Under the pieces are notes generated by a model, which was not told where the DNA came from, ran no database searches, and saw nothing but the letters and a program-made list of their open reading frames with translations. DNA of 64,000 nt from Myxococcus stipitatus. Lineage in GTDB: Bacteria; Myxococcota; Myxococcia; Myxococcales; Myxococcaceae. This document shows, piece after piece, positions 2 to 14,766 of the stretch (position 1 is its first letter; every line of letters starts with the position of its first letter). The position numbers were made by a program, and so were the translations under genes. The DNA is taken from positions 372,001 through 436,000 of the forward strand of contig NZ_JAKCFI010000008.1 in NCBI RefSeq assembly GCF_021412625.1. The letters run 5' to 3'.

Positions 2-286
2 GCGTTCATCGGGAGCAGCAACTGGACCTACCGCAGCATGCAGTTCGACGCGGAGGTCAGCGCCATCATCCAGAACCCGGACTTCGTGCGCGACACGCGC
101 GAGGAGCTGTTCCAGCACTGGGGCATGCCGACGGACCTGGCGGAGTGGCGGGAGACGACGGAGGAGAACCTCGAGCGCGACGCGGATGGGAGCGTGCGCA
201 TCGTCCCGTTGACGCTCGCGGACCTGAAGGTCGACTACACGAGCCTGACGGCGTGGGGTTCGTGGGCGGCGGGGAACATGATCTAG
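2..286 (+). CDS. Phospholipase D-like protein, C-terminal fragment
   Basis: The reading frame is open from the window edge to a TAG at 284-286, so the start lies upstream. The first visible residues, GSSNWTYRSMQFDAE, match the block after the HxK of an HKD motif (GSxN followed by a conserved aspartate or glutamate) in phospholipase D/cardiolipin synthase-like enzymes. About 80 residues follow, as is usual after the second HKD motif. The family cleaves or transfers phosphodiester head groups, typically of phospholipids at the membrane. The N-terminal HKD half and any membrane segments are outside the window, so cardiolipin synthase cannot be separated from another PLD-family enzyme. A GGAGG-like sequence just after the stop (287-292) is too far from the next start to matter. 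Confidence 0.72.
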   Translation, partial: AFIGSSNWTYRSMQFDAEVSAIIQNPDFVRDTREELFQHWGMPTDLAEWRETTEENLERDADGSVRIVPLTLADLKVDYTSLTAWGSWAAGNMI

Positions 287-378
287 GAGGAGTGGCTCGG
301 GCCACCGGCTGACGGGTTGGTGGGTCGGAGGGTGCGGTCGGCGACGGGCGGCCCCAACTTGGGGGCAGGAGGAGTTCC

Positions 379-942
379 ATGCCCCATCCCGCCGGACAGT
401 CCAACGCGCCCCTGCCCGCTGGCACGCTCGCGCCGCCTATCGACGCGCCGGTGACGCCGGACCAGAAGGTCTCCCTGGAGGATTTCCGGGGGGCGCCGCT
501 GGTTCTGGTGTTCTACCCGGCGGACTGGAGCCCGGTGTGCAGCGACGAGCTGGCGCTCTTCAACGAGCTGTTGCCGGAGTTCGAGCGCCTGGGGGCGCGG
601 GTGATGGCCATCTCCTGTGACGGGGTGTGGTGCCATCTGGCCTTCGCGCGCGCGAGGAACCTGCACATGGTGCTGGCGTCGGACTTCCATCCGCAGGGGG
701 CCATCTCGCGTGCGTACAACGTGTTCCAGGAGGACGCGGGGACGTCGGACCGGGCGCTGTTCGTGCTCGACGCGGAGGGGAAGGTCTTCTGGAGCCATCG
801 CTCGCCGGTGGCGGTGAACCCCGGGGCCGATGGGGTGCTCGACGCGCTGGAGCGACTGGCCAGGCGGAGCGGCTCTGTGTCCGAGGACGCTGGCGTGTCG
901 ACGCAGCGGGGTGCTCCGGAACATCCGGGGGTGCACTCATGA
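379..942 (+). CDS. Peroxiredoxin (AhpC/TSA family)
   Basis: This 187-residue thioredoxin-fold protein has the peroxidatic block FYPADWSPVCSDEL, with the reactive cysteine at residue 54. Peroxiredoxins reduce H2O2 and organic peroxides in the cytoplasm through this cysteine. The preceding SLEDFRGAPLVLVFYPADW stretch is the usual beta-strand lead-in of the AhpC/TSA fold. A second CDGVWC segment near residues 79-84 could supply a resolving cysteine, but this is not certain. The start follows an AGGAG (369-373) at good spacing. The stop overlaps the next ATG (ATGA at 939-942), so it is translationally coupled to a DsbA-like thioredoxin-fold protein, perhaps its reductant or a functional partner. 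The last 25 residues are low-complexity. Confidence 0.85.
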   Translation: MPHPAGQSNAPLPAGTLAPPIDAPVTPDQKVSLEDFRGAPLVLVFYPADWSPVCSDELALFNELLPEFERLGARVMAISCDGVWCHLAFARARNLHMVLASDFHPQGAISRAYNVFQEDAGTSDRALFVLDAEGKVFWSHRSPVAVNPGADGVLDALERLARRSGSVSEDAGVSTQRGAPEHPGVHS

Positions 943-1481
943 GCAAGCTGCGAGTTCCGGTGGGGGCATTGGACCATGTCCTGGGGCCGCAGGATGCGCC
1001 GGTGACGCTGGTGGAGTACGGCGACTTCCAGTGCCCCTTCTGTGGGCAGGCGTACTGGGAGGTGAAGAAGGTGCTGGAGGAGATGGGCGAGGGGTTGCGG
1101 TATGTGTTCCGGCACTTCCCGTTGACGCAGGCGCACCCCTTCGCGCTCCAGGCCGCGGAGGCGGCCGAGGCCGCGGGCGCGCAGGGGAAGTTCTGGGAGA
1201 TGCATGCGCGGCTCTACGAGCATCAGCAGATGCTCGACTTCGAGTCGCTGCGGGAGCACGCGTGGGCGCTGGGGTTGGAGGACGAGCGTTTCACCCGTGA
1301 GCTCATGGAGCACCGGCACCAGGAGCACGTCCGGCGGGATTTCATGGGAGGCGTGCGCAGCGGAGTCAACGGGACGCCGGGCTTCTTCATCAACGACGAG
1401 CGCTACGTGGGCGAGTTCAGCGCGCCCGTGCTGCTCTCCGTGCTCCAGGGCCGGAGCGCCGAGGCACCTGGGTATTACTGA
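939..1481 (+). CDS. DsbA/FrnE-like thioredoxin-fold oxidoreductase
   Basis: The 180-residue product carries the redox motif CPFC (C32, C35) in the context EYGDFQCPFCGQAY. It also has the cis-proline loop GTPGFFIN near residue 155, the arrangement seen in the DsbA family (thioredoxin_4). It lacks a signal peptide or transmembrane anchor, so it probably acts in the cytoplasm. The ATG at 939 overlaps the stop of the peroxiredoxin gene by 4 nt, so the two form one transcription and translation unit. I infer a thiol-disulfide exchange role linked to peroxide defence. A longer ATG-initiated frame from 627 exists but is only the shadow of the peroxiredoxin gene. Confidence 0.85.
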   Translation: MSKLRVPVGALDHVLGPQDAPVTLVEYGDFQCPFCGQAYWEVKKVLEEMGEGLRYVFRHFPLTQAHPFALQAAEAAEAAGAQGKFWEMHARLYEHQQMLDFESLREHAWALGLEDERFTRELMEHRHQEHVRRDFMGGVRSGVNGTPGFFINDERYVGEFSAPVLLSVLQGRSAEAPGYY

Positions 1482-1703
1482 GGCACGGGGTACCGTGGTC
1501 ATCGTGCGGTGAACGGTTTTGCCGTGGGTGCCGCGACCTTGCCGCTGCGGGGCTCGCATTGAGGCCCGTCGCCGTCGTGGCGCCTGTCCGCTTCATGTGA
1601 CCGAGCGCGTACTCGTACATGGCCGTCTCGACCCCATGTCCGGCGAGGGTGAGGTGGAGTCCTCTTGGATATCGATGGGCACCTGCGTGGCCGACGGCAT
1701 CCG
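1482..1703. other. Intergenic region between convergent genes
   Basis: This 222-base gap separates the dsbA-like gene (ending at 1481) from the stop of the convergent Imm11 gene (1704). I see no convincing ORF, promoter or strong terminator hairpin. It marks the left edge of the accessory block. Confidence 0.4.
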
Positions 1704-2291
1704 TCAATGCAGCTCGGGTGCTTCGGTCACGCGCTCGAACGCTACGCCCAGGTTCCCGACCTGTTCGAGTGCGTCTTTGAGTTCCTGCGAAACAACAAGC
1801 GAGATCTTGAACTTCCTCAGCCGAAAGACCTGCGCGCCCTCGGTCTTCGCAGAGTCGATTCGCAGCCCGTAGATCCAGCGATACTCCCCTTCATATCCAG
1901 GGAAGGGATCGTCCTCGTCATAGTGCTGCACCGCCCGGCACCGGGCCTCGTCGATGGCATCGACCACCTTGGTGACGTTGACGACGAAGTATGGCTCGAC
2001 CTCTCCCTCGACCGACACCGGGAAGAGCTGCACGTCGCCGGGAGCAAGCGACCTGAAGACGTTCGCGACGGCTTCGCTGACGATGGGGATTGCTTCAATC
2101 ACAGAAAAGGAAAACGCCCGCTGCCTGCCCGGATGTGCGACTCGTGCCTTGAGGGCGCCCAGGTCAGGAAGAACGCGTCCGTCCGCGAACATCCATGGCT
2201 CATCAAACGCCTCACCCGAAGCCTGGGTCGGCGTCTCGAGGAGCCACCGGGGCACATCGCCAAGCTCCACTGAGTAGAAATGACGCTCCAC
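1704..2291 (-). CDS. Imm11-family immunity protein (SitI-like)
   Basis: This 195-residue protein matches what I know of the myxobacterial Imm11 family (DUF1629-type), with the signature DVQLFPVSVEGEVEPYFVVNV and a C-terminal LRIDxxK...VFRLxxF...LKDALE segment. Such proteins neutralise a cognate contact-delivered toxin. It starts with GTG at 2291, just behind the SitA-like toxin stop (2293), with a GGGGGAGGG ribosome site inside the toxin's 3' end. The two are clearly co-translated as a toxin-immunity pair. It is paralogous to the protein at 22373-22945, for example in the shared DVQLFPV, LRID and KDALE blocks. The binding partner is inferred from position only. Confidence 0.8.
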   Translation of the reverse strand: MERHFYSVELGDVPRWLLETPTQASGEAFDEPWMFADGRVLPDLGALKARVAHPGRQRAFSFSVIEAIPIVSEAVANVFRSLAPGDVQLFPVSVEGEVEPYFVVNVTKVVDAIDEARCRAVQHYDEDDPFPGYEGEYRWIYGLRIDSAKTEGAQVFRLRKFKISLVVSQELKDALEQVGNLGVAFERVTEAPELH

Positions 2292-2292
2292 G

Positions 2293-3594
2293 CTATCCCT
2301 CCCCCTTCACAATGAGGCTCCGCAACTCGGATCCCTGCGTCATCAGCTCGTCGGCGATCTTCGCAAGTTCCTTCATCAAGCTGGCCCGGCAGGCGTCCGT
2401 CGTTCGGCAACGCGCGACAGAGCGCTCAAGGCGCCGAATCACCGCTCGATGGTACAGCTCAGGGTGAGGCCCCTCGTGTCCCTTGAGCCGCACCTTGTTG
2501 GCAGCATCTTCCAGCGTCATCCCGGCCTTCTCGAAGATCTTCAGGCACTGAGGCGTCCAGGGACCGCCGGTCACATCCGAGATCGGGTTCTTGTTCGTGC
2601 AGATGTGATGAACAGGCCCCACCACGTCACCCGGAAACCGCCCATCCGAGTACATCGCCAGGGCAGCGGCGGCTCCGGGCGCCAGGGCGACATTGAGCAC
2701 ACCAGCTGCGGGAAGTGCCATCGACGTCACGCCTCCACTCATTGCCGCTCCGAGCTGGAATCCCGCTTCGGCCTCAGCCCGAACGACCGCCTGAGTGAAG
2801 CCAGGGAGCCTGGGGGCCTGAGCCGCCATCGCGCTCTTTCCACCCAGGGCCGCAGTGACCAGCAGGACCAGGACGCGTGTGCCGTTCGTCCCCAGCACCC
2901 GCCCGAACCGATGCCCGATGTCCTGTAGCTCGATGACGCTCATCGCCGTCCCGGCATCATCCCACAACTGCACGAAGCCGCGCCCTATCTCCCAGACCGG
3001 CATGACGCCGAGGTAGGCCACCATCGCCGCCGTCAGCGCAACGGCGATGCCCTTCGTGATGGGCTCCGGCAGGGTGATCGTGAGGAACACTGCGAGCGCC
3101 GCCGAGGTCACCATGGCCTTGAGCGCGGCCGGGTTCAGCACCTTGCCGACCTCGGCCTCGACACTCTCCCACACCGTGTCGAGCGCGAAGGACAGGGCCA
3201 TCAAGGTCCGGTCCTTCCGCGAGAACGTCAGCCCTGTTCCGCCCACCAGGGTCAAGCAGTCGTCCGCGTCGGGGCAGATGCGCGCGTACAACGACTCGGG
3301 CGATGCTCCCGAGCCCGAATCCGCGAGTCCGTTCGAGGAGGCGAGCAGCGTCCTGGACCGAACCCAACCTCGCGCATCCACTTCTTCCGCTTCCCTGAAC
3401 GCGACATCCATCCGCAGGTCGAGGATGAGCCGAGCGAGGGCCGACTTGAATTCCTCTTCGCTTACTTCGACGGGCTCGGCGTCCACGGACTCGTGGACAA
3501 CCTGCTGGCCATCACCTTTGTCGAGATGGACCACACGAGTGGTAGCACACCCTGTCGTCCAAAGGCTCACAAGAACCAGCGCAATGAACCGCAT
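2293..3594 (-). CDS. SitA5-type lipoprotein toxin with AHH nuclease domain
   Basis: The 433-residue product begins with a lipoprotein signal (MRFIALVLVSLWTTGC, lipid-attachment Cys16). Hydrophobic segments lie at about 155-200 and 235-315. The C-terminus (325-390) has a VHHICTNKN motif (H329, H330) followed by GPWTP, NKV, GHEGPHP and YH elements, the AHH-type HNH-like nuclease layout. Myxobacterial SitA toxins are outer-membrane lipoproteins exchanged between kin by TraA/B-dependent outer-membrane exchange, killing recipients that lack the SitI partner. The ATG at 3594 has GGGGGA five bases upstream; a TTG 15 nt further upstream is less likely. The Imm11 gene follows immediately. The SitA5 label rests on remembered family architecture. 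Confidence 0.78.
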   Translation of the reverse strand: MRFIALVLVSLWTTGCATTRVVHLDKGDGQQVVHESVDAEPVEVSEEEFKSALARLILDLRMDVAFREAEEVDARGWVRSRTLLASSNGLADSGSGASPESLYARICPDADDCLTLVGGTGLTFSRKDRTLMALSFALDTVWESVEAEVGKVLNPAALKAMVTSAALAVFLTITLPEPITKGIAVALTAAMVAYLGVMPVWEIGRGFVQLWDDAGTAMSVIELQDIGHRFGRVLGTNGTRVLVLLVTAALGGKSAMAAQAPRLPGFTQAVVRAEAEAGFQLGAAMSGGVTSMALPAAGVLNVALAPGAAAALAMYSDGRFPGDVVGPVHHICTNKNPISDVTGGPWTPQCLKIFEKAGMTLEDAANKVRLKGHEGPHPELYHRAVIRRLERSVARCRTTDACRASLMKELAKIADELMTQGSELRSLIVKGEG

Positions 3595-3767
3595 TGAATC
3601 CCCCACCAACGCCTCCCAGGAATTGGAAGGCGCGGAATACTGACCTTGGGGTCTGACTCCTTCAATGGCGCTTCCCTATTCTCAGCGCACTGAACGATTC
3701 GACCAGCGTGCCCAAGGGGGCTCAAGCGGCCTGTCCACCGGCCGGGAGCATCGCTCGGGCGGCCCCA

Positions 3768-4304
3768 TCAGCGGCCCTCCTCGGCCCCGCTGAACCCTCT
3801 CTCCCTCTCAACAGGGCCCCCATCCCTCTTATGCGCATGCGCTGAACTGCGGCCATGCAACAACCTCGACAGCCATCGCCTCAGCCTTGCATACAGACCT
3901 CGGTCAACTTTAGGCGGCGGAACAGCAGCAGCCGGCACGGCCTCTTCTGTCGTCTTGGACGGGCCGTAGTAGCGCTCCTTGGCGATCTTGTCCCGACGAC
4001 GCTCCGCCGCAATCCGCTCGTCGGACCAGGGGCCGGCCTCAATCACCCGCCCATGATCGATCACATAGTGCGAACGGCACGCCAAGTTCCAGCTGCCGAC
4101 CGATGGCCTCAGCGAAATCGTCTCGCCGTCGTAGTTCAGATTCCAGTCGGTCGGCGTCAAGGGCGTCACGACCTCCTCGCCACAGCCGCAGCAGCAACGA
4201 TGGGCAACCGTGCCATACTCCATTGAAACGTAGAGTGTTCCCGGTTCCATCTGCTCCGGGATGTACTGCACGAACTGATGCTCCAGACGAGGGTATCGCA
4301 TCAT
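3768..4304 (-). CDS. DUF6527-like Cys-rich protein of the ubiquitin-like operon
   Basis: This 178-residue protein has a small Cys-cluster, HRCCCGCGEEV, near residues 35-45, and a downstream WNLACRSHYVI segment. Together they look like a zinc-binding site. The architecture resembles DUF6527 proteins, which I recall next to multiubiquitin and ThiF genes in bacteria. The C-terminal 60 residues are basic and probably disordered. Its ATG (4304) overlaps the stop of the E1-like gene (ATGA), so it is the last gene of the operon. A RING-like or other accessory function in conjugation is possible but unproven; no catalytic motif is recognisable. A TTG at 4310 is an alternative start. Confidence 0.6.
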   Translation of the reverse strand: MMRYPRLEHQFVQYIPEQMEPGTLYVSMEYGTVAHRCCCGCGEEVVTPLTPTDWNLNYDGETISLRPSVGSWNLACRSHYVIDHGRVIEAGPWSDERIAAERRRDKIAKERYYGPSKTTEEAVPAAAVPPPKVDRGLYARLRRWLSRLLHGRSSAHAHKRDGGPVERERGFSGAEEGR

Positions 4305-5476
4305 TCGCAATCACTGTTCAGGAGCATGTTGCCGTCGGTCGTATAGGTGCTGTGGTGTTCACGCTCGAGGTCGCGGTAGAAGTCTCGAAGCTTCTTCCAC
4401 TTGATGACGGCCAGCACTGCATTCAGCGCGTTCAGGTCGGCGACCTGGATGTTGGAGGAGTAGAGGTCGTCCACACCGCCACCTTCGAAGGAGATACGGC
4501 CCTTGTGAACGTGGTCGCGCTTGCGCGGCGTGCTCACCGTCACCCGCAGGATGCCGCCGAGAGAGCCGTCGACCAACTCCAGGCCCATCCCAACATCCAC
4601 GAACGGCACCCCGAGCGCCTCCAGCCGACCCACGATGACGCGCTTGGCGGGCCCTGCATCCACGCAGACGAACGCGAAGGAGACTCCATCCAGAAGGTGG
4701 ATGTTGCCCACGTCGAGCAGGACCGCATGGGCAACAATCCGCCGGTGCATCCTCGAATAGATAGCCTTCAGATGGTCGACCTTCTTCGGCGCCTCACGCA
4801 ACTCCTCGATGGACGCTGCGCCCGGTGCGCGAAACGCATTGTGCTGCAGGAACTCGTCGCCATCGAACAGCCGGATCTCCCGGACCGGCGTCTTGGCGAC
4901 GAAGTCGAGCACATAGGAGCCAGTGCCACCGAGGCCGATGATCGCCACCTTCTCCGTCGAGAGGCGCTCGGTCAGCGCGCCGATTCCCACGCGGTCCGAT
5001 GCGGTCTCCGTGTAATTGAAGACGCTGTCCTCCTCGGCCTCCGGCATCCGGAAGGTGCGGGGACTGACGCCTGGCTTCAGGACGGATGCAGGCCCCGAGA
5101 GGATGCTCGCGTACGTTGTCATCTTTTCGTAGTAGTCAGCATAGCCGTTCGGAGGCTTGCTGGAAAAGACGTGCTTCGCGGTCACCCCGCTCCCAAGGTT
5201 GAAGTCAGCGCTCTGGTTGGCAATCCCCTGAATGGGGGTGCCGTTGGGCTGACACGGGAAGTTCCCATCGAAGTAGACAACGTGCGTGTCCGGCTGGCGA
5301 GTGACGTCACCCGCCATGTTCAGGGTGGAGATGAGCGACCCCATCCGCACCTGCCGCTGCGCATCGACGTAGGGCACCTCACGCATGATGAGAAAGCCCC
5401 CCTGGAGCTGCACGAAGTAGCCTTCGTCGCGCAGCCGCTTCAAGTCGGGACTATGACTGAACGGTCTTCGTGACAT
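4301..5476 (-). CDS. ThiF/E1-like ubiquitin-activating enzyme homologue
   Basis: The 391-residue protein has a ThiF/E1 adenylation domain in its second half. It shows the nucleotide loop GLGGTGSYV (181-189), RLFDGD with Asp205, and FVCVDAG (269-275). Family members adenylate the C-terminus of ubiquitin-like proteins. The N-terminal 150 residues form a separate alpha/beta domain containing VVYFDGNFPCQPNGTPI (Cys75), which could be E2-like; that is inference. The ATG at 5476 follows AAGGGGA at good spacing and lies 26 nt inside the end of the triple ubiquitin-like gene, and the DUF6527-like gene overlaps its stop. This is the arrangement of prokaryotic multiubiquitin systems. No separate JAB peptidase or E2 gene is visible. 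Confidence 0.78.
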   Translation of the reverse strand: MSRRPFSHSPDLKRLRDEGYFVQLQGGFLIMREVPYVDAQRQVRMGSLISTLNMAGDVTRQPDTHVVYFDGNFPCQPNGTPIQGIANQSADFNLGSGVTAKHVFSSKPPNGYADYYEKMTTYASILSGPASVLKPGVSPRTFRMPEAEEDSVFNYTETASDRVGIGALTERLSTEKVAIIGLGGTGSYVLDFVAKTPVREIRLFDGDEFLQHNAFRAPGAASIEELREAPKKVDHLKAIYSRMHRRIVAHAVLLDVGNIHLLDGVSFAFVCVDAGPAKRVIVGRLEALGVPFVDVGMGLELVDGSLGGILRVTVSTPRKRDHVHKGRISFEGGGVDDLYSSNIQVADLNALNAVLAVIKWKKLRDFYRDLEREHHSTYTTDGNMLLNSDCE

Positions 5477-6206
5477 TGAAAGTCGTCCCCTTTTCCTTGA
5501 CTTCAACGGAGCCCCCGGCGCCGAGTTCGCCGGCGTGCGGCTTCGAGGCGGCGTGGCGGTAGGTCATCGAGAACACGGCGTTCGGCTCATGCGAGCCGGG
5601 GAAGGCCAGCTGGACGACCTGCTCGAAGGTCACCCGCTTGTCGTTCACGACGCGCGGCCGGGCGTTCACGATGATTTCGAACGTCCGGGCTGGCATAGGA
5701 CCGGTGATGAAGCGCTCGATACCCGGGGCCGTGAGGTCGATCAGGTCCTGGGGCGAGATGAGCCGGTCTTCCCCCCCGCGCACCTCGAGGAACACCGCCT
5801 GGCCCTTGCCTACCTTCGCGAGCGTGTAGAGCGCGGCGCCGCTAATGGCCGGCTTGCCCCACGCGAGCTGGTCGTCATCCAGCGTCAGCTTGAAATCGCG
5901 GTCGGTCTGAAAGGCCACGAAGCGCTCGGCCCCGCGCGTGCGAAGGTCGAACGGCTCGTCGAGGCGGAGGTCCTCGAAGTCGCCGGAGGCCAGGATGGCG
6001 AAGAGGCTGAATCCCCCGCGTGGGTCCAGTCCGGCGCTGGCGAGAATCTGCCGTCCCAGGGGAACGGGGTCGGCCACGTCCACGGAGCGGAAGGAGAGGT
6101 CGCCCTGCGCGACGAGGATGCGGTAGCTCCGCGCGGGCCGCAGGGCCCGGTCCTCCCGCAGCGCGGCTCCTACGTCTTCGTACTCCAGAGGTTCGTCATT
6201 CTTCAT
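5451..6206 (-). CDS. Triple ubiquitin-like (multiubiquitin) protein
   Basis: The 251-residue product contains three consecutive beta-grasp-like units at roughly residues 27-103, 105-177 and 180-251. Each starts with a strand such as SYRILVAQG, DFKLTLDDD or TFEIIVNARPRVV. The third unit, with VNDKRVTFEQVVQLAF, is the most typical of multiubiquitin proteins. The C-terminus is NVTKTVQS rather than the diglycine of eukaryotic ubiquitin. The start at 6206 has GAGGA ten bases upstream; the longer frame from 6239 adds 11 residues without a better site. It overlaps the E1-like gene, its presumed activating enzyme. It lies 87 bp behind the helicase gene and probably belongs to the same operon. Confidence 0.75.
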   Translation of the reverse strand: MKNDEPLEYEDVGAALREDRALRPARSYRILVAQGDLSFRSVDVADPVPLGRQILASAGLDPRGGFSLFAILASGDFEDLRLDEPFDLRTRGAERFVAFQTDRDFKLTLDDDQLAWGKPAISGAALYTLAKVGKGQAVFLEVRGGEDRLISPQDLIDLTAPGIERFITGPMPARTFEIIVNARPRVVNDKRVTFEQVVQLAFPGSHEPNAVFSMTYRHAASKPHAGELGAGGSVEVKEKGTTFNVTKTVQS

Positions 6207-6293
6207 GTTCGTTGAGTCCTCAAAGTGCAGCCGGGTCACTCCCGGCCCACTGATGGCTCAATCGTCACGACGACAGGCAACCGGTAACGTTGG

Positions 6294-9200
6294 TCAGAAT
6301 TCTCTCGAGAGGATGCCTTCCGGCGTAGGCCCACACACGAAAAAGGCCGGGCACCCTGGGCACATGCGCACCGACGGGTCGGCAGGGAAGCGCCCTTGCC
6401 GAATCCCCTGCAAGAAGTCGATGAGCTTGTCCTGACGACTCTGGAGTTCCCTGGTCGTCAGGCTCAGGGGCCGCGAGGTCTGGTCGGCCAGGTGGACCAG
6501 TTCGACAACGGCCCCAGGGAAGACCCGCTGGATGGCGAGAAGAAAAGCAGCGGCGCCCACGTCCGTGGTCTCGGCCGACTTGAAATGCCCGGTCCGGATT
6601 CGACGAAACGTCCGGATGCCATCCGCGCGCACGAGCACGTCGTCCGGCCAGACGATGATTTCGTCCTCAGCGAAGGTCAGGAGGAGGTCGGCCGGCGGCT
6701 CCGACCTGCTCCCGGCACGCACCGAAAGGAAGTACCGGAGCATGGAAAGAGCGACCGCCTTGAAGTCGTCGACATAGCCGTGCCCCGCCAGGCCGTGGGC
6801 GTCGAACGCGGCCATCACGCCTCGCTCCAGCTCGCGCTCCTCTGGAATCGGTCCATTGCCAGCAACGACGGCCTGATAGACGGTGCGGACCGCCTCGTGC
6901 ATCTGCATGAAGGCCGTCGTCGTCCTGCGGCCGCCAATCCGCAGGACGTGCGCGTAGAAGAAACGCCGCGGGCAGCGCCCATAGAGTGAAATCTGTTGTT
7001 CGCTGAAGCGAAGCCGGCCGCGAACCTTGAGCGCGACTTCGCCCGTCTCGGGCGGCAGCAATCTCTCCGGGGCTGGACTCACCTTCCGTCGGCCCAGGGA
7101 CGCCCCCAGCCGGTCGAGAAAGGGGGACAACGCCCGGGCGTGTCCATTGGACTTCTTCGTCGGGGCGTAGAGGACCAGCCGGTCACGCGCCCGCGACAGG
7201 GCCACGTAGAACAAGCACTCCTGCTCTTCGGCCTGCCCGGCGCGGAAGACCTCCGCAGCGCTGCCGTGCCCGCCTTCGACCATGCCCTCTGGCGGAGGAC
7301 ACGGCGGCAGGGGCGGCTTTCGGGGCAGGGTGTCCTGATTGAGGCCGGGCACATGTACGACCGGGAACTCCAGCCCCTTCGCGCCATGGATGGTCATGAG
7401 CCGCACCGCATCGAGGCCATGCGCTGCAGCGGGCAGTTGCCTCAGGTCGCGGTCATCGCCCAGCCGAACGAGCCTGCGCACCCGGTCGAGGAGGCGGAGA
7501 ATGGGTAGGCCGGAGCCAGACGGCTGCACGCGCAGGAAGTTCATCAGCTGCCAGATTGCGATTCCACGCGTCCTATCGGAGACGTCGGACGAGCTGGCCA
7601 GCCGTGCAGCCATGCGCGTCCGTTCGAGCAACACGCTCGCGAGCACGGTCCATGGCGACGCGGCCTTGTCGAAGTCGCGCAGCGTCCTCGCCAGTTCCTC
7701 GAGTGCGGCCCGGCCGGCCTGGGACACCCCGGCTATCGCACCAGGGGCGTGCAACCATGCACCGGGCACCGCGTTGGCCTGGCGTAGATGGTCGAACACT
7801 GCGGCGACGTCGGCGAGCGACATGGTAAACTCGGGCCAGCAGGCCACTCGAACGAGCCCCATGGCCCAGCGGTCGGTGAGGAGCGACAGCAGGGAAAGCA
7901 GGTCCTTGACCTCCGGCCGCTCGAACAGACTTCCGAGGAACAGGACGGGAACGCCCAGGCGCTCGAGGTCGCGTGCCAGCGTCGACAACGTCTCGTTGCC
8001 CGTACAGAGCACGGCCTGATCGCGATAGGCGAAGCCTTCACGCCGCATCTCCTCGATTGCTTCAGCCAGCGCCCCCGTCTGCTGCTCCGCACGGTCGACG
8101 GTGCGCAGTTCGGGGCGGCTGCCACCCGCGCCCCGGTTGGATTCCAGACCGCCATCCGGGTCGCCGGCCTTCATGCTCGCGGCGAAGGCGGAGAACGCAC
8201 TCACTACCTCCTCGACCGAACGGTAGTTCCTCCTCAGCCGGCCGCGCGAACCCCCAGCGAAGTCCTCCGCCCCGAAGCGAGCCATGTTGAATGACGACGC
8301 GCCACGGAAGCGGTAGATCGACTGCTTTGCATCCCCCACGCACCAGAGGTTCTCACCGGAGCCGCGCAAGGCTGCCAGGAGACGGACACTGCTTCGGTTC
8401 ACATCCTGGTACTCGTCCACCAGGACGTGGTCGTACTGGCCCCGCAGGTGAGCGCGAATCATGGGGTTGCCTTCCAGGAGCCGCACGGGCAGGGCCACGA
8501 GATCACCGAAATCAATCCGGTGCGACCGCCGCTTCAAGGCCTCGTAGGCCGCATAGACGCGAGCGACCTCCAGCGCCCGCTCCGCCGCCTCCCGTTCCTC
8601 GGGGCGCCTGGCGTCGCGAAGCATCTGCTCGGCGAGCGCGCCATAGCGCGCTTCGTCCACGACCTCATCTTTGGCGCGGGAGATCGCCGTCAGGATGTCG
8701 GAGATATGCTGGGTCGGGTCGTAGAGGTTGCGGTAACGCACCAGCCCGAGCCGTGGAAACTCCTGTTCGAGGAGCTCCACGGCCTCGGCCCGGTCCATCA
8801 TTCGTGGCTCCTTCGGGAGCCCCAACTCGGCATGGAAGCGGTGGATGAGGTCCAGGCCAAAGGAATGGAACGTGCCGATCCACATCGCCGTCGCGGCCGC
8901 CTTGTTCCCGCGAGCGATTCGCTCCGACATCTCCCTGGCTGCCTTGTTGGAGAAGGTCAGCAGGAGAATCCGGCGGGGGTCGACGCCGTCGGCCAGGAGC
9001 CCTTCGACGCGTCCGGTGAGCGTCTGGGTCTTGCCGGTGCCAGGGCCGGCTTCGAGCAAGTAGGCAGCACCGCGATGGGCGGCTGCGGCGCGCTGCAGCG
9101 GATTGAGCGGCCGCTCAATCCATTCTTCCAGGTGCCCGGGAGGGATGGGCGGCAGGAGAAGCGCATCGAGGAACTGCTGAGCCACCACATCGAAGGGCGC

Positions 9201-9698
9201 ACCGAGCCGTGCCGCGACAGCCGCAGCGGACATCCCGTCTTCGAGGTGGAGCTTGCGCACCACGGTGCGCGGAAGCAGGAACTCGCGCGCGAACAAATCC
9301 ATCTGTACTTCGCGCCGCTGTCGACGGCCGTAGTCCACCACGCGCTCGACGCCTACCGGCGAGGGCTCCGCCGAGCGCGCGGGGTCAATCTCCCGGACCG
9401 GTTCCGTGTCAGGGTCATCCCCGAGCTCCACATGGCCCAGCTCATGAGCCACCAAGAACGCTCGCATGAAGGGCGTCCCGACGTTCTCATGGAGAATGAG
9501 ACCTTCGCTGGGGATAAGCGTGGCACGCGCCCCATTCAGCAAGGCGGCCCCGGCGGCCGTGGGCTCGACGTCGAGCCCCCGGCGCCTGGCTTCCGCCACC
9601 GCAAACTCGTAGGGATACCAGGGATTGAGTCCTCCAGCGACCGCCTGCGCATGCAGCGCGGCCGCGACCTGCCGCCCCAGTTCGACAGCGTCCATCAT
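6294..9698 (-). CDS. ImmA/IrrE peptidase-UvrD helicase-PD-(D/E)XK-like fusion
   Basis: This 1134-residue multidomain protein starts with an ImmA/IrrE-type zinc peptidase (HELGH at 85-89, third ligand probably in DLFAREF near 135). It continues as a superfamily 1A helicase: Walker A AGPGTGKT (217-224), DEYQD, VGDAKQSIYRFRG, NYRS, MTIHGAKGLEF and YVALSRARDRL. The C-terminal 250 residues resemble AddB/Cas4 nuclease modules, with a first cysteine in YGRCPRRFFYAHVL and a terminal MCPGCPAFFVC cluster suggesting a 4Fe-4S site. The nuclease core RTGHFKS lacks the usual acidic-x-lysine signature, so catalysis is uncertain. Its ATGATG overlaps the stop of the HTH gene. The fusion suggests a stress- or phage-sensing repair/defence enzyme. 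Confidence 0.85.
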   Translation of the reverse strand: MMDAVELGRQVAAALHAQAVAGGLNPWYPYEFAVAEARRRGLDVEPTAAGAALLNGARATLIPSEGLILHENVGTPFMRAFLVAHELGHVELGDDPDTEPVREIDPARSAEPSPVGVERVVDYGRRQRREVQMDLFAREFLLPRTVVRKLHLEDGMSAAAVAARLGAPFDVVAQQFLDALLLPPIPPGHLEEWIERPLNPLQRAAAAHRGAAYLLEAGPGTGKTQTLTGRVEGLLADGVDPRRILLLTFSNKAAREMSERIARGNKAAATAMWIGTFHSFGLDLIHRFHAELGLPKEPRMMDRAEAVELLEQEFPRLGLVRYRNLYDPTQHISDILTAISRAKDEVVDEARYGALAEQMLRDARRPEEREAAERALEVARVYAAYEALKRRSHRIDFGDLVALPVRLLEGNPMIRAHLRGQYDHVLVDEYQDVNRSSVRLLAALRGSGENLWCVGDAKQSIYRFRGASSFNMARFGAEDFAGGSRGRLRRNYRSVEEVVSAFSAFAASMKAGDPDGGLESNRGAGGSRPELRTVDRAEQQTGALAEAIEEMRREGFAYRDQAVLCTGNETLSTLARDLERLGVPVLFLGSLFERPEVKDLLSLLSLLTDRWAMGLVRVACWPEFTMSLADVAAVFDHLRQANAVPGAWLHAPGAIAGVSQAGRAALEELARTLRDFDKAASPWTVLASVLLERTRMAARLASSSDVSDRTRGIAIWQLMNFLRVQPSGSGLPILRLLDRVRRLVRLGDDRDLRQLPAAAHGLDAVRLMTIHGAKGLEFPVVHVPGLNQDTLPRKPPLPPCPPPEGMVEGGHGSAAEVFRAGQAEEQECLFYVALSRARDRLVLYAPTKKSNGHARALSPFLDRLGASLGRRKVSPAPERLLPPETGEVALKVRGRLRFSEQQISLYGRCPRRFFYAHVLRIGGRRTTTAFMQMHEAVRTVYQAVVAGNGPIPEERELERGVMAAFDAHGLAGHGYVDDFKAVALSMLRYFLSVRAGSRSEPPADLLLTFAEDEIIVWPDDVLVRADGIRTFRRIRTGHFKSAETTDVGAAAFLLAIQRVFPGAVVELVHLADQTSRPLSLTTRELQSRQDKLIDFLQGIRQGRFPADPSVRMCPGCPAFFVCGPTPEGILSREF

Positions 9699-10276
9699 CA
9701 GTTGTCGTCCGCCATCAACCCGGCGCGCCTCTCCTCGGGCACGCCCGCATCGATCAACAGGCGCTCGAAGCTCACGGGCGCCGCCACCATCGGCTTGGTG
9801 TTCGACTTGTAGCTCCGATCCAGCTCCGGCGTGTATTGCGGCCTGAGGGTACTGACAAGCAGGTCGGGCGTGCTGTTCAACGCCGCTGCCAGGCGCGTCA
9901 GAAAGCGTCTCGGCACCGAGGCGACGTCCACCCGGCGCTCCCGAAAGGCGGTGATGACCTGCCGCGGCACCTCCAGGCGCTTCGCGAGGTCACGCAGCTC
10001 ATCCAGCGACAGAGCGTCGAATGGGCTCACGGGTTTCGGAGTGGCTCCCCGATGACGGCTCCATCCGGCGTCAATCAACGCCTCATCCTCCGGTGCCAGC
10101 GGTCCCTCGTCCTCACAGACAGGCCGGGAGAGCTCTCGCGACAGGTCAACGAGTTCGGAGGTGAGATCTGGATAGTCGCGCAGGTAGCGCTCGAGCGTTT
10201 CCCGACCCGGGTTGAGCTCCACCGCGAAGGCGTCCAGCACATCGTCGCGTGATGGTCGGGAAGTGTGGGACGTCAT
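9698..10276 (-). CDS. HTH-domain regulator upstream of the ImmA-helicase
   Basis: The 192-residue product has a central SLDELRDLAKRLEVPRQVITAFRERRVDVASVPRRFLTRLAAALN segment (about 88-135) that reads as an XRE/Cro-like helix-turn-helix fold. It is flanked by acidic, poorly conserved ends. HTH proteins are common partners of ImmA/IrrE peptidases, which cleave them to relieve repression. Here the ImmA domain is fused to the helicase made by the next gene. The start ATG overlaps the stop of the sigma-like gene (ATGA, 10273-10276) and its own stop overlaps the helicase start, so expression is tightly coupled. I infer it is the operon's regulator and the peptidase substrate; neither is shown. Confidence 0.6.
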   Translation of the reverse strand: MTSHTSRPSRDDVLDAFAVELNPGRETLERYLRDYPDLTSELVDLSRELSRPVCEDEGPLAPEDEALIDAGWSRHRGATPKPVSPFDALSLDELRDLAKRLEVPRQVITAFRERRVDVASVPRRFLTRLAAALNSTPDLLVSTLRPQYTPELDRSYKSNTKPMVAAPVSFERLLIDAGVPEERRAGLMADDN

Positions 10277-11061
10277 GGCTCGGCTCCTTCGGACAGCATC
10301 GCGCGCAGGCTGGCAAAAGCCTTGTCGCGATACGTCCTGATCGTCTTCTCGGACCTTTTCAGGGTACCAGAAATGGTAATTGCGCCCGGTTCCTTGGAAT
10401 CGATGGGAAAGCCTTGTCGAAGCATCTCTATGACCCTTTTGTGCTCTGTCGGCAAGGCTTCAATCGCAGCATCGAGACGCGACTGGTATGCGGCGGAGGT
10501 ATTCTCCATGGCGGCGAAAAGGTCGAAGCTGCCCGCCGCCCGTTCAACCTCGATTGAAGGCTCGCCCGTTTCCTCATCGAGTTCGAGAGCAACCGAGCGC
10601 TTCTCGTCGCGCCAGGCCGGACGCTTGGCGTCGAGCTTCAGGGTCGCGATCGCGCCATCAAAGCGCACCTCGAAGAAGTCGAGCCGTTCTGAATAGAATT
10701 GCCGGTCGGAGGCAAGCAACTCGACGAACTCGAAGAGCACCTTCTCCCTGATGTTGCTCCTGGTCAGCGACACACCGCTCCCGTCTGCGTTTTCTGCCTT
10801 CGGGAGGCAGCGCAGGACCCGCGCCAACAAGATTCTGTAGAGCTGCTCGGAGGCGGCATCGGGCTCACGTGTCCGACCGGCTCGAACGAAGTAGAGCAGG
10901 CACTCGCTCGGCACATAGCCTGGGTCCTCGCGACGTAAGATTCGAGCCCTGGCCACCAGCTCGTCTCGCGATAGCGCCTCCAGTTCGACCAGTTTGGCCT
11001 GAATCTTCGGAGACCGGGAGTACACTCCCCCTGCCGAGGTTTTCCTGAGCGAAGTTACCAA
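10273..11061 (-). CDS. Sigma-70 region 4-like regulator, first gene of the operon
   Basis: The 262-residue protein ends with ALPTEHKRVIEML (about 203-215) and SEKTIRTYRDKAFASLRAML, the layout of a sigma region 4 helix-turn-helix. The N-terminal half (ALSRDELVARARILRRED...YRILLARVLRCLP) is alpha-helical and loosely like ECF sigma region 2, but core-binding motifs are not obvious. It may be a divergent ECF sigma factor or an HTH protein derived from one. The likely start is TTG at 11061, with GAGGGG six bases upstream; no ATG is available in frame nearby. It heads a six-gene minus-strand operon running to 3768. Confidence 0.55.
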   Translation of the reverse strand: MVTSLRKTSAGGVYSRSPKIQAKLVELEALSRDELVARARILRREDPGYVPSECLLYFVRAGRTREPDAASEQLYRILLARVLRCLPKAENADGSGVSLTRSNIREKVLFEFVELLASDRQFYSERLDFFEVRFDGAIATLKLDAKRPAWRDEKRSVALELDEETGEPSIEVERAAGSFDLFAAMENTSAAYQSRLDAAIEALPTEHKRVIEMLRQGFPIDSKEPGAITISGTLKRSEKTIRTYRDKAFASLRAMLSEGAEP

Positions 11062-11490
11062 CGATTACCCCTCACAACGACGGACAAACCTGAACACCTA
11101 CTCAAAGGTAGGAAAGACGTGAAGTGGTTCAATGGCTAGCTTCTTTTCAAGCCAAAACTTCATTTCGCCCCTGACGTCACCTGACACGTTTCTGGAGCGG
11201 GGTGTGCATCTATGACAGGTCCGCTCGTATTCAAATAAGGGTACACAGGAGCCGCCACACGCAGAATACCACCCAGGTAGTATGCCGCAAGACCTCGCCA
11301 TCCTGACCTTTCTGATGGGGTGCATGGGAAACCAGCCGATGCTCCGCGATGTTCCTGGAAGAAGCGACTCTCCAGATTGGCAGCGCGGAGGGTACTCCTG
11401 ACAGCTCCATGGGATCCCTCAAGCAGGTGCGGGGGAGGCGAGCACGGGGCGTGAGGCAGCGGTCCTGTTCCGGACCTACGCGGCGGCCAC
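11062..11490. other. Intergenic region between the defence operon and the CRISPR array
   Basis: This stretch of about 430 bases is relatively AT-rich at 11085-11175 and holds a short inverted repeat, CCTAC-N6-GTAGG, near 11097-11112. It lies upstream of the sigma-like gene, so it probably contains that operon's promoter reading leftwards. It also adjoins the first CRISPR repeat. No protein-coding gene is convincing. No clear -35/-10 pair could be assigned by eye. Confidence 0.4.
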
Positions 11491-12226
11491 GTACTCAACG
11501 CCTCTCGGCATCACGACCAGCGGAACATCAAGGAGCACAACACCGCCGACTCGGTGGGCATCGGGTGCTCAACGCCTCTCAGCATCACGGCCAGCAGGAC
11601 TCCCTACCCGTAGCTCAGCTGGCGAGAGGACGGGTCTGTGCTCAACGCCTCTCGGCATCGCGGCCTGCGGGACCGTCGTGGGCGCGGTGCTGTACATCAA
11701 GTGGAACTGGTTGTGCTCAACGCCTCTCGGCACCACGGCCAGTGAGTGTCGACGGAATCGAGTCCAAGGGGAATGCGGTCATGGTGTGCTCATCGCCTCT
11801 CGGCATCACGGGTACCCGAACAGCACGTCAAGGACGCGGTGGAGACGCTGGAGACGAAGTGCTCAACGCCTCTCGGCATCACGGTCAACGGGAAACGAGG
11901 TGAACGCGGCAGAACCGGACGCGCTTCTGTTGTGCTCAGCGCTCCTCGGCATCACGGCCAGCATGTCCAAATCAGCACGACGTGAAGATTCCACCTGGTT
12001 ACGAGAAGTGCCCATCGCCTCTCGGCACCCGGCCCCGTACTTACAGGGGCACTTCAAGAGCCAGGAATGATCAGCGCCACGTGGCATCGCAGTTCGCGAA
12101 CTCAAACCTCGATAAATACATCGAGAAAGGGACCTGCTCATCGCCTCGCCCCAAAGAGGTCATCGCGGAGGTCCGGATGCCATACGACGTGTGCTCAACG
12201 TCTCTCGACATCACAGCCCGTCGGAC
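11491..12226. CRISPR. Degenerate type III CRISPR array, about 10 repeats of 36 bp
   Basis: Repeats start at 11491, 11565, 11638, 11713, 11786, 11859, 11932 and 12008. A very degenerate copy lies near 12134 and another starts at 12191. The consensus begins GTGCTCAACGCCTCTCGGCA and continues TCACGGCCAGCGGGAC. Every copy carries substitutions, worst towards the right end, and spacers are 37-40 nt. Read on the minus strand, the repeat can form a GCC-GAGA-GGC tetraloop hairpin and ends in GTTGAGCAC, resembling the ATTGAAAC-type crRNA 5' handle. I therefore favour minus-strand transcription, co-directional with the cas genes. The decay and the absence of cas1/cas2 nearby suggest the array no longer grows locally. 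Confidence 0.93.
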
Positions 12227-12413: not shown

Positions 12414-13097
12414 TCACCCCACGAGCTGGCGACGCTCCACGCGAGGCCCCATCGCCAGAAGCCACGTCGGAGGCACCTCCTGGCGCAGCCCCTGCTCCAC
12501 CCGAGGTTTGACAGCCACACGCGGCATCGTGGGCAGGAACACCCCGCATCCCATGTGGCGCCGTCCACCGAGCCCCTGCGCCTGAAGTCGCAACGAGGAC
12601 TCCCGCGACAACCCGCTCAAGGTGAGCCCGTAGCCAATCACCTTCTTCCCAGCGATGGTGACGACCCGCCGACGCCCCACGCTCATCCGGCCCTCGCAGC
12701 TCATCTCCCCGAGGAACTTGTGGACGGCGCTCCGGAACGAGGCGTCATCGATCGCATGCTTGAACGTGACGACACGCGCGGACAGCGACGCCGGAGCCTC
12801 CAGCGAGAAGACCTTCGGCGCGCCGAGCGTCACCACGCCCTCGGAGATGACGAGCGCCGCGTTCGTCAGCGGCAGGAACAGCGGTACCGCCTCGATGGGA
12901 CACCGGACGCGCATCGAGCCGTGCCCCACCCACAGGGACCGCCCCTCCGCCCTCGTGCCGCGCAGGTTGAACAGCCCCACGTCCCTGCGCTCGTGCAACC
13001 CGGGGAGACGATGCGACAGCGCGGAGAACAACGCGTACCCGTGGTCCAGCGGCACCATCCCGCCTCGCGCGGGAAAGACAAGGTCAATGACTGACAT
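12414..13097 (-). CDS. cas6: Cas6 (Cmx6-like) CRISPR RNA endonuclease
   Basis: The 227-residue product matches the layout of the myxobacterial Cmx6 branch of Cas6. It begins with LVFPARGGMVPLDHGYALFSALSHRLP, where the histidine is a candidate catalytic residue. It ends with the glycine-rich RNA-binding loop LQAQGLGGRRHMGCGVFLP (about 172-190). About 37 residues follow the G-loop, more than is usual. Cas6 cleaves pre-crRNA within the repeat to leave an 8-nt 5' handle. The ATG has GAGG four bases upstream. It lies 87 bp after cmr6 on the same strand and directly faces the array, so it probably processes these repeats for the Cmr complex. Confidence 0.88.
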   Translation of the reverse strand: MSVIDLVFPARGGMVPLDHGYALFSALSHRLPGLHERRDVGLFNLRGTRAEGRSLWVGHGSMRVRCPIEAVPLFLPLTNAALVISEGVVTLGAPKVFSLEAPASLSARVVTFKHAIDDASFRSAVHKFLGEMSCEGRMSVGRRRVVTIAGKKVIGYGLTLSGLSRESSLRLQAQGLGGRRHMGCGVFLPTMPRVAVKPRVEQGLRQEVPPTWLLAMGPRVERRQLVG

Positions 13098-13184
13098 GGT
13101 TCCTCACTTGTGACGTGACGCCATTTCAGGCGACGAAGAGCCCGAGACCCACTCGGCGTCTCGGGACAGCGACTCTCGCGACAC

Positions 13185-14375
13185 TCACCCCGTCACTCCG
13201 CGAATCGACCGCAGGAGCGCCTCCAGCCGGAGCTGCTCATCCCCCTTCCGGAAGTTGAACGTCTTGCTCAACACCCGCTCCACACCTTCAAGCGCCGCCG
13301 CGTCCCGCGTCGCCAGGCGCTCCCCCCACTCCACCTCCAGCTGTTTGAACAGCGGCTTCTGCGTCGTCGAAGCCTTCCGCGCCGTGAGCCAGGCTTGCAG
13401 GTCGACCGCCATCGAAGAAAGTCGGACCTCCCGACGCGCGGCCCGCTCCGCCTCCTTGGCGGACTCCGAGACAGGCGAGGCCTCCTCCTCGGACACCGCC
13501 TTGAACCGGCCATATCCCGCCGCCGTCTTCCCGCCCACGCCCCACGTCTCGAGCGCCTCCTGGAGATAGCGCCGAGCGCGCTGCAGCAGCACCTCACCAT
13601 CCGGTGTCCCCGTTGCGACCTCCAGCACCACGAGGAAGCAGTTGCCGGGAGCCACGGTCAGGAACGCCACCGGGTTCGGATCCCCGAAGTCCGAGGGCCA
13701 CGGGGTCACCTCCTCCTTCGCCGAGTAGTACTCCCGCTGATGGACCGTGAGGACGTCTCGCGCCAGCACCTTGCAAGCGGCCGCGCTGCCGGGAACCCAC
13801 AGCGCGTCATGGAAGATGACCTCCCCCTGCGTGGAGAAGACCCGCTGCTTGTCGACATCGACATCTGGTGCGCCGAAGAGCCGACGATACGCATCCCCCG
13901 GGGGACGGACCGGCCTCCGGTCCCGCCACTCCACACCACGGAAGTCCTCGCGCCCGTCCTCGATGACCTCCGGAGCCGGGCCATACGCCGCCTCCACGTA
14001 GCTCGCGGTGAGCCCCTTGAGCGACGAGCCAGGCAGGACCGGCACGCCCCAGGTGTGGTGCAGCGTCAGCCCGACCTCAGTCGGCGAGGGGTTTCCATAC
14101 CCCAACAACAGCCGGCTCTCCGCACGCACGAAGAACGCCACGCTCCGCGTCCCCTGGAAGGAAGCCCTCCACCGAGCATAGGCCCGGCCATAGCGCTCCG
14201 AGGCACCGAACCCGCACAGGGCCTCGAGCCACGCGTCGCGTGCCTTGGCGCTCTGCTCATTGTTGTCCTTGAGGAGCATCTCCGGAGGCGCCCAGCGGGA
14301 ATACGCGAGCCCGGGGTGGGAGGGCGTCTCGCCATCCTCCGGCCACTCCCTGAGCCTATGGAGCGTTCGCCACAT
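13185..14375 (-). CDS. cmr6: Type III-B RAMP protein Cmr6
   Basis: This 396-residue RAMP-superfamily (Cas7-like) protein has GVPVLPGSSLKGLTASYVE, the Cmr6 signature, followed by the typical FSTQGEVIFHDALWVP and a G-rich WGVGGKTAAGYGRF segment near residue 285. It caps the crRNA 3' end of the Cmr complex. About 100 residues after the RAMP fold form a charged C-terminal extension ending in RSIRGVTG. ATG 14375 has AAGGGG nine bases upstream and overlaps the end of cmr5 by 20 nt. The longer frame from 14486 is noise from the cmr5 region. Confidence 0.9.
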   Translation of the reverse strand: MWRTLHRLREWPEDGETPSHPGLAYSRWAPPEMLLKDNNEQSAKARDAWLEALCGFGASERYGRAYARWRASFQGTRSVAFFVRAESRLLLGYGNPSPTEVGLTLHHTWGVPVLPGSSLKGLTASYVEAAYGPAPEVIEDGREDFRGVEWRDRRPVRPPGDAYRRLFGAPDVDVDKQRVFSTQGEVIFHDALWVPGSAAACKVLARDVLTVHQREYYSAKEEVTPWPSDFGDPNPVAFLTVAPGNCFLVVLEVATGTPDGEVLLQRARRYLQEALETWGVGGKTAAGYGRFKAVSEEEASPVSESAKEAERAARREVRLSSMAVDLQAWLTARKASTTQKPLFKQLEVEWGERLATRDAAALEGVERVLSKTFNFRKGDEQLRLEALLRSIRGVTG

Positions 14376-14766
14376 CGGCGTTCCCCTTCTTCTTCTCGAG
14401 CACGAACGTGGCGCTGACCGCCCTGCGCAACCACACCGCGAGCGCGAGCACCTCGCGGGTGACACGCATGTACTCGCTCGGCTCAAGGACGAAGACGTCG
14501 GGAATCAACGAGACCTTCCCCCCGCTCCCGAGCCCCAGCTCCTTGGAGTCCGACAGCTGGTCGAGCAGGAGCTTCGCCGCCTTGTCGGTCGAATCCCGAT
14601 GCAGGAAGACGAGCGCCGCCGCCAGGCCGTCCCGCAGCACGGCGCTGCCTAGCGAGTTGACCCGAATCCTGTAGTCGTCCTGGAGTTCCTTCGAGACGTT
14701 GTCGACGCATCGATAGGCGAACGCCGCGCGAGACTGGTCCCGCGTCAACTTCTGCTGGGGCTTCAC
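14356..14766 (-). CDS. cmr5: Type III-B small subunit Cmr5 (Cas11)
   Basis: This small alpha-helical protein of 136 residues begins VKPQQKLTRDQSRAAFAYRCV and has LGSAVLRDGLAAALVFLHRD in its middle. Both are hallmarks of Cmr5, which stacks along the crRNA-target duplex in the Cmr complex. GTG at 14766 has AAGGAG eight bases upstream and overlaps the cmr4 stop (GTGA). I prefer it to an ATG at 14796 that would add ten residues inside cmr4. It is co-translated with cmr4 and cmr6. Confidence 0.9.
   Translation of the reverse strand: MKPQQKLTRDQSRAAFAYRCVDNVSKELQDDYRIRVNSLGSAVLRDGLAAALVFLHRDSTDKAAKLLLDQLSDSKELGLGSGGKVSLIPDVFVLEPSEYMRVTREVLALAVWLRRAVSATFVLEKKKGNADVANAP

Follow-up and report, generated by a model that had tools for sequence, protein, structure and literature searches.

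The locus and its gene content

We analyzed a six-gene locus of Myxococcus stipitatus that appears to place a ubiquitin-like conjugation module beside a transcriptional control cassette. It lies at positions 3768–11061 of a 64,000-nucleotide stretch, hereafter the window (positions 372,001 to 436,000 of contig NZ_JAKCFI010000008.1, assembly GCF_021412625.1), in a genome of 10.12 Mb and 47 contigs. Six open reading frames (ORFs) were present, all on the minus strand, in the transcription order g1, g2, g3, an 87-bp gap, g4, g5 and g6. The first, g1 (10273–11061, TTG start, 262 aa), encodes a sigma-region-4-like regulator; g2 (9698–10276) encodes a protein with a predicted XRE-like helix-turn-helix (HTH) and is a candidate protease substrate; and g3 (6294–9698, 1134 aa) encodes a fusion of an M78 (ImmA/IrrE) protease, a UvrD helicase and a PD-(D/E)XK-like domain that has four cysteines and is nuclease-dead by sequence. 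Beyond the gap follow g4 (5451–6206, 251 aa from 6206), a triple ubiquitin-like protein, g5 (4301–5476), in which a predicted E2-like DUF6791 domain is fused to a ThiF/E1 adenylation domain, and g6 (3768–4304), a DUF6527 protein with predicted zinc binding.

An earlier interpretation of the window, made from the sequence alone (the sequence-only reading), had described six minus-strand genes with short overlaps and a single 87-bp gap, and all ORFs and junctions were confirmed. The g1/g2 junction is an overlap at 10273–10276 and g2 meets g3 at 9698; g4 and g5 overlap at 5451–5476, given a g5 start at 5476, and g5 and g6 at 4301–4304, given a g6 start at 4304. The gap spans 6207–6293 if g4 starts at the methionine at 6206, which agrees with homologues better than the mechanical ORF start at 6239. 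Pfam families were matched above their cut-offs by g3 (M78, UvrD and PDDEXK_1), g4 (Multi_ubiq in three stretches, 199.7 bits), g5 (DUF6791, 204.8 bits, and ThiF, 36.5 bits; the model NF004802 gave 717.7 bits) and g6 (DUF6527, PF20137, 86.3 bits), and the identities first proposed for the last three genes were thereby upheld.

Conservation of the gene order

When species genomes were searched with the E1 sequence, 58 loci were returned, of which the 48 with at least 5.5 kb of upstream sequence were used for counts; near-copies (L030–L033, L051, L075, L084) were kept in these counts. The full trio g1–g3 lay upstream in 26 of the 29 loci whose E1 was at least 60% identical to that of the window. 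The exceptions were two loci with g3 and no recognized g1 or g2 (L040, L041) and one with no trio gene (L037). Below 60% identity, the trio was found in only 2/19 loci (L054, L057). The g4 and g6 thresholds were passed in 48/48 loci, the g6 of L048 being truncated by the contig end. The closest E1 relative found (95% identity) came from a record named Myxococcus qinghaiensis. By record titles, trio hosts belong to the Myxococcota, the Alpha-, Beta- and Gammaproteobacteria, Planctomycetota, Verrucomicrobia and Acidobacteria, with one cyanobacterial plasmid.

Searches with a g1 profile gave matches in 8/193 genomes of the same phylum (two strong) and in 6/385 genomes of another class (three strong). 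All five strong full-length matches adjoin g2, g3 and g4. One further genome (G022) had an N-terminal g1-like match without g2 or g3 alongside, in a frame that overlaps other long frames and may be spurious. The six-gene adjacency is not due to chance: the arrangement is far beyond chance because the gene order recurs in many lineages. The possibility that such helicase genes never occur beside multi-ubiquitin genes, which the sequence-only reading had named as evidence for chance adjacency, did not hold, the genes forming a conserved unit.

The proteins of the regulatory trio

Among relatives of g1, 15/22 family members matched the Pfam family Sigma70_r4_2 (best 9.1e-7), while the window's own protein fell below Pfam reach for sigma region 4. 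Compared by hhalign with 25 sigma factors from this genome, the g1 alignment scored 96% (P 2.7e-9) over residues 135–258, against 1.3% for the best of 50 column shuffles. A canonical sigma factor was rejected, region 4 being present and region 2 unmatched. For g2, no Pfam family was found, hence no Pfam HTH, and that assignment was rejected. Its comparison with 21 XRE domains from this genome (L125 and L131–L133 excluded) gave 82% (P 1.1e-5) at residues 94–140, and the best of 50 column shuffles reached 4.5%. The g2 profile had no useful match among Protein Data Bank (PDB) sequences. The sigma-like and HTH assignments of the sequence-only reading stand as profile matches, the former also through its relatives, and neither is supported by Pfam for the window's own protein.

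In g3, the M78 peptidase domain (9174–9587, residues 38–175; PF06114, 53 bits) carries HELGH and a downstream glutamate, and the PD-(D/E)XK-like domain (6333–7010, residues 897–1122; PF12705, 1.5e-11) lies near the C-terminus. The protein was followed in a 14-sequence alignment and in a motif check of 18 sequences. HExxH, the downstream glutamate, Walker A, DE(Y/F)QD and the four cysteines were kept in 18/18. The acidic residue of (D/E)xK was missing in 18/18, with the lysine retained in two (L135, L138), in a motif register that was set by eye. An active nuclease was rejected on this ground. As judged from its motifs, g3 reads as a protease, a DNA motor and a dead domain, the last probably an iron-sulfur domain of the AddB/Cas4 kind, in keeping with what is known of those families. 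The ImmA/IrrE-UvrD-Cas4/AddB-like fusion proposed earlier thus holds in its three Pfam domains, but its nuclease is catalytically dead by sequence. Membership of Gabija was also rejected: GajB matches reflect the UvrD domain, and no GajA was among the listed matches of the other seven scanned proteins. The OLD/TOPRIM family (Pfam) was found in none of the six genes.

The ubiquitin-like module

The g4 protein ends in ...FNVTKTVQS, and each of the 51 distinct sequences in the set has a C-terminal serine and no diglycine. Its nearest PDB sequence was 9cd2 (2.3e-28), a related multi-ubiquitin protein. Sequence matches to BilA and 9cd2 were strong, and the match to BubA itself reached only E 0.7.

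We modeled the structure of g5. The full model had a predicted local distance difference test (pLDDT) score of 88, and in structure comparison its E1 part resembled BubCD best (Z 25.0, 2.6 Å, 224 residues). The DUF6791 domain alone (5030–5476) was modeled with AlphaFold2 (AF2) at pLDDT 93. Its best structural match (VIA) was a Citrobacter BubB chain (Z 8.5, 3.6 Å, 119 residues), a Z score that is modest by the tool's own scale; the other 49 matches listed (Z 3.8–5.6) were nearly all E2, UEV, UFC1, Atg3 or related chains. The VIA matches, on which the E2-like reading rests, followed a Foldseek preselection. Foldseek alone gave no match below E 0.001 for this domain, its top rows being E2 chains of Atg10 and Atg3. 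In the DUF6791 alignment His65 is invariant and Cys75 almost so; in a chosen subset Cys75 was present in 30/31 sequences, and any other cysteine column in at most 17/31. We infer from the model that the E1 is fused to an E2-like domain, namely DUF6791. We propose that such E1 proteins would combine both activities in one chain.

In g6, residues H37, C39, C41, C43, C78 and H81 (counted from 4310) were invariant in 44 sequences and likely form a zinc site. No useful match to g6 was found among PDB sequences. A tblastn search with the g5 E1 gave no match in a phage collection of 50,697 records.

A promoter-like element ahead of the ubiquitin-like genes

The g3–g4 gap contains, on the coding strand of the operon, a promoter-like element of the form TTACCGGT-N15-CGATT at 6260–6287, matching 13/13 positions of the consensus. 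Eight gaps of alpha/gamma type and that of the window served for the first definition of the motif. In the A-type loci (as distinct from the B-type loci described below), at least 11/13 positions were matched in 28/28, invariably with a 15-nt spacer; in L078 and L104 the element stands just ahead of the g3 end as placed. Shuffled sequences, which preserved base composition only, reached this score in 0.25% of cases. At the same score, the element was found upstream of g1 in 0/19 loci and ahead of the ubiquitin-like gene in 0/14 trio-less loci, L037 included. With spacers of 14–16 nt allowed, the exact pattern occurs once in the 10.12-Mb genome, at 6260–6287. Over 20 chosen sequences, representing 10 E1 clusters at 85% identity, mean pairwise identity was 94% at the 13 element positions, against 38% in the spacer. 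A narrower pattern, ACCGG[TC]-N13-17-[CT]GATT, fixed earlier from the first nine gaps, matched 23/38 gaps of all types, and over all loci it gave 51 matches in 1,485,580 nt, gaps included. Most simply, these sequences would be a promoter recognized by g1, and the regulator gene would travel with the ubiquitin-like operon for that reason.

Plasmid loci pair the trio with different modules

Relatives of g3 were found in 108 of 72,556 plasmid records at E ≤ 1e-30, the weakest of them generic UvrD helicases, and 88 covered at least 80% of its length. A megablast search with window positions 2200–12000 gave no match to the plasmids. We inspected 18 plasmid loci, hand-picked for diversity from the matches listed and so a non-random sample. 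A ubiquitin-like gene adjoins the trio in 17/18, and an E1 as well in 15; the sole exception, L146, has a broken g3 copy and no ubiquitin-like gene was found there. In the plasmid trios g2 was recognized in 17/17 and g1 in 15/17 (not in L141 and L149), with profiles that had absorbed plasmid members over three rounds.

Seven loci are of the multi-ubiquitin type (L134, L141, L142, L143, L144, L149 and L151), L149 and L141 being typed from weak matches or annotation only. The ubiquitin-like genes are divergent from the trio in three (L141, L144, L149). Another module (B-type) is present in eight loci (L136–L140, L145, L147 and L150) and comprises Ubl-like, DUF7665, JAB-family and ThiF proteins. 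Its models were built from L136–L140, L147 and L150 (for JAB, from all of these but L138 and L150), and those loci match partly by construction. In Pfam, Ubl and JAB are weakly supported, Prok-JAB reaching 24.0 against a 25-bit cut-off and the Ubl also lying below its Pfam cut-off. In L137, the gene named ThiF in its record gave no ThiF match, and DUF7665 of L139 had no relative among PDB sequences. In L135 the multi-ubiquitin gene lies past IS66 genes, and in L148 only a Ubl-like match is left beside the trio. In L144 (Rhizobium beringeri plasmid pRlX1, 1989–12492), a single trio is flanked by two ubiquitin-like operons, a divergent one of multi-ubiquitin, ThiF and DUF6527 genes and a downstream one of multi-ubiquitin, JAB and large-ORF genes; the element precedes both.

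Controller genes in the position of the trio

Of the loci below 60% E1 identity, 17 lack the trio, and in 11 of these an M78 peptidase gene lies upstream in the opposite orientation (L058, L060, L061, L063, L064, L067, L068, L069, L076, L081 and L082). The upstream-gene scan covered 20 proteins, none of them from L066 or L074. Among the five loci in which the neighbor of the M78 gene was scanned, an XRE gene was confirmed in L058, L068, L076 and L082, and the neighbor in L060 gave no family. Other trio-less loci have a WYL+WCX protein (L070), an HTH protein (L080), a RES-domain protein (L065) or an AHJR-like nuclease-type ORF (L073). The stand-alone M78 genes and the WYL gene resemble the CapH+CapP and CapW controllers, CapP being an M78 protease. 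The trio thus has the position that DNA-damage controllers take in sister systems.

Proposed mechanism and alternatives

From the domains, alignments and models above, we consider it probable that g1–g3 form a DNA-sensing transcriptional switch and that g4–g6 form a ubiquitin-like conjugation module under its control. In the proposed sequence of events, the UvrD motor and the dead, cysteine-rich nuclease-like domain would engage damaged or phage DNA. By analogy with the ssDNA-activated CapP and PprI (ssDNA, single-stranded DNA), this engagement would activate the M78 protease within g3, and the protease would then cleave or displace the XRE-like g2. The freed sigma-like g1, probably central to the mechanism, could bind the element at 6260–6287 and drive transcription from it. 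The E1 domain would adenylate the ubiquitin-like C-terminus and transfer it to the E2-like domain of its own chain, where Cys75 would probably receive it. Conjugation to a target would follow, and the zinc-type g6 may aid in choosing that target. The sequence-only reading had proposed a similar scheme in which the helicase senses DNA, the peptidase removes the HTH regulator and the ubiquitin-like module tags a target. Its protease step is favored by the intact motif and by relatives with CapH+CapP-like or CapW-like genes, but it left out the sigma-like protein, and the nuclease is dead by sequence. In its wider form, the proposal is of a portable switch for DNA damage: a protease gated by a helicase would free a sigma-like factor dedicated to a bipartite promoter of its own. 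Such a switch would be interchangeable with CapH+CapP-like and CapW-like controllers and would serve at least two kinds of ubiquitin-like conjugation system; we regard this as rather likely, if slightly less so than the division of roles itself.

Several observations weigh against the switch. Region 2 was undetected in g1, residues 1–165 scoring 0.9% by hhalign against 25 region-2-bearing sigma factors. The HTH of g2 is predicted from profile comparison only, and the XRE set that matched it gave 0.1–1.3% with five other alignments, except for 21% with part of g3. The C-terminus of g3 had no nuclease or AddB/Cas4-type relative among PDB sequences. L037 has a close E1 (73%) yet no trio. As for the element, 2/19 of the upstream-of-g1 controls reach 10/13 positions; it was present in only 4/10 of a second set of gaps (B-type, the second operon of L144, and L148) and in only 1/3 divergent intervals (L144); and the narrower pattern matched only 12/18 A-type gaps unused in its derivation (L027, a near-copy of the window, being uncounted). 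The 13-position scoring consensus was fixed once all gaps had been seen. The sequences behind the pairwise identity of the element are related and so not independent, and the choice of best matches inflates that figure.

An alternative is an integrated defense machine in which the helicase-protease is a working effector part that, for example, recruits the ubiquitin-like protein or is tagged by it at phage DNA. The tight gene order across many lineages would suit such a machine, and UvrD proteins act directly in Gabija (PMC10952713). We nevertheless consider it unlikely. The trio also pairs with a different ubiquitin-like module and can be divergent from it, relatives have M78/XRE or WYL genes in its position, and the conserved promoter-like element stands between the trio and the ubiquitin-like genes. 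The second kind of ubiquitin-like partner, the divergent arrangements and the position of the element between the two parts favor a view of the locus as two modules, a portable regulatory trio and a ubiquitin-like module that has a promoter-like element of its own, over that of a single fused machine. The single six-gene operon of the sequence-only reading is in this respect a conserved unit of separable parts.

The switch could also be wired differently, with the element acting as an operator for g2 or as an RNA element and g1 as an ordinary HTH co-regulator. Such wiring would accord with the lack of a detectable region 2 in g1, and the present sequence evidence does not fix the identity of the element-binding protein. 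Two conserved blocks around a fixed 15-nt spacer of variable sequence, however, resemble a –35/–10 pair, and no inverted repeat with arms of at least 6 overlaps the element in the window; we judge this wiring somewhat less likely still than the integrated machine. That the genes are chance neighbors in a defense island, as the adjoining CRISPR and toxin genes might suggest, is very improbable and counts as refuted, the order being kept in Myxococcota, Proteobacteria, Planctomycetota, Verrucomicrobia, Acidobacteria and a cyanobacterial plasmid.

Relation to known systems

Bacterial ubiquitin-like systems are a recent field, and their triggers are little known. We take a Bil (BilABCD) system to require a separate JAB deubiquitinase and a separate E2, and on this definition membership was rejected, since neither a JAB nor a separate E2 family (Pfam) was found among the six genes. 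Bub E1 proteins presumably carry a JAB domain, judging by class 6e and the name BubCD; the window has DUF6791 in that place. The oligo-ubiquitin-like protein and E1 of the window are related to those of Bil and Bub (PDB 8u38, 9ea4, 9eae), but there is no JAB peptidase among its six genes and the predicted E2-like domain is fused to the E1.

The multi-ubiquitin, E1 and metal-protein core corresponds to the known class 6e polyUbl operons. These combine two to three tandem ubiquitin-like domains with a small protein that binds metal and with an E1 that carries JAB or, in some species, 'domain X' (Iyer, Burroughs and Aravind, 2006; PMC1779556). One member cited there, Mesorhizobium loti mlr6139, has three repeats (PMC1779556), and g4 likewise has three tandem domains. 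The window E1 has DUF6791 and no JAB. DUF6791 is probably 'domain X', and its model has an E2-like fold. The class 6e metal-binding motif given there is C-x3-C-x(35-38)-H-x2-C; C39-x3-C43 of g6 fits it, and C78-x2-H81 is reversed and lies 34 residues on. A text search of PMC1779556 found neither 'helicase' nor 'UvrD', both of which apply to the operon of the window.

CapH+CapP, CapW and CapK+CapS genes are described as controlling neighboring immune operons on DNA damage, CapP being a protease that is activated by ssDNA and has the HTH repressor CapH as its substrate, and CapH+CapP and CapW controllers lie beside 219/544 Bub operons (PMC13373217). In the window, regulatory genes likewise stand beside a ubiquitin-like operon, and g3 has an M78-type protease with HExxH and downstream glutamate as in CapH+CapP (18/18). 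The XRE-type HTH partner of CapP has a possible counterpart in g2 (82% profile match, no Pfam family). Unlike in CapH+CapP, the protease does not stand alone but is fused to UvrD and a dead PD-(D/E)XK-like domain, and, compared with all three controllers, the locus has two additions, a sigma-like protein and a promoter-like element of its own. PprI (IrrE) of Deinococcus, an ssDNA-activated metalloprotease that cleaves the repressor DdrO (PMC10904395), offers an analogous pairing of metalloprotease and transcription regulator. Unlike the cassette of the window, PprI-DdrO controls DNA damage-response genes, and a helicase fusion is not mentioned for PprI in the available part of that source (PMC10904395).

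We found no description of the sigma/HTH/M78-helicase cassette, of its use by several ubiquitin-like operons or of the element in open-licence PubMed Central, a collection that does not cover the primary Bub, Bil and CapH/CapP papers, and absence from this literature is not proof of novelty. The occurrence of this cassette next to ubiquitin-like operons of more than one kind, in distantly related bacteria, suggests that it is a new type of switch triggered by DNA damage. If this is right, bacterial ubiquitin-like systems would have a distinct class of controller with a built-in DNA motor, its promoter would be predicted to the base, and the trio together with TTACCGGT-N15-CGATT would be a simple marker for further ubiquitin-like operons.

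Neighboring genes and other observations

As first described, a CRISPR operon and toxin cassettes adjoin the six genes. A CRISPR-like array with Cas6, two RAMP proteins and Cmr3 lies beside the operon (11491–12221 and 12414–16954), its nine copies of a 31-nt repeat spaced mainly by 73–76 nt with one larger step. On the other side are a SitA5-type polymorphic toxin gene with an AHH nuclease domain (2293–3609) and, next to it, an Imm11 immunity gene (1704–2291). A sigma-70 region 2 match at 63537–63734, at the far end of the window, is unrelated to the operon.

Among the E1 loci, L030–L033, L051, L075, L084 and L035 had equal or nearly equal match scores in records of several genera, which may reflect very recent transfer or assembly contamination; short contigs of the L035 type may be contamination. 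In L055, a metagenome-assembled genome of Sideroxydans, a second diverged E1-like ORF and a weak g6-like ORF (89–3660) precede the trio in the same orientation, suggesting two ubiquitin-like modules around one cassette. In the rhizobial loci L036, L038, L039, L040, L041 and L044, g6 is followed by a conserved pair formed by an ORF of about 885–930 aa and a second UvrD-like ORF, the latter split in L038.

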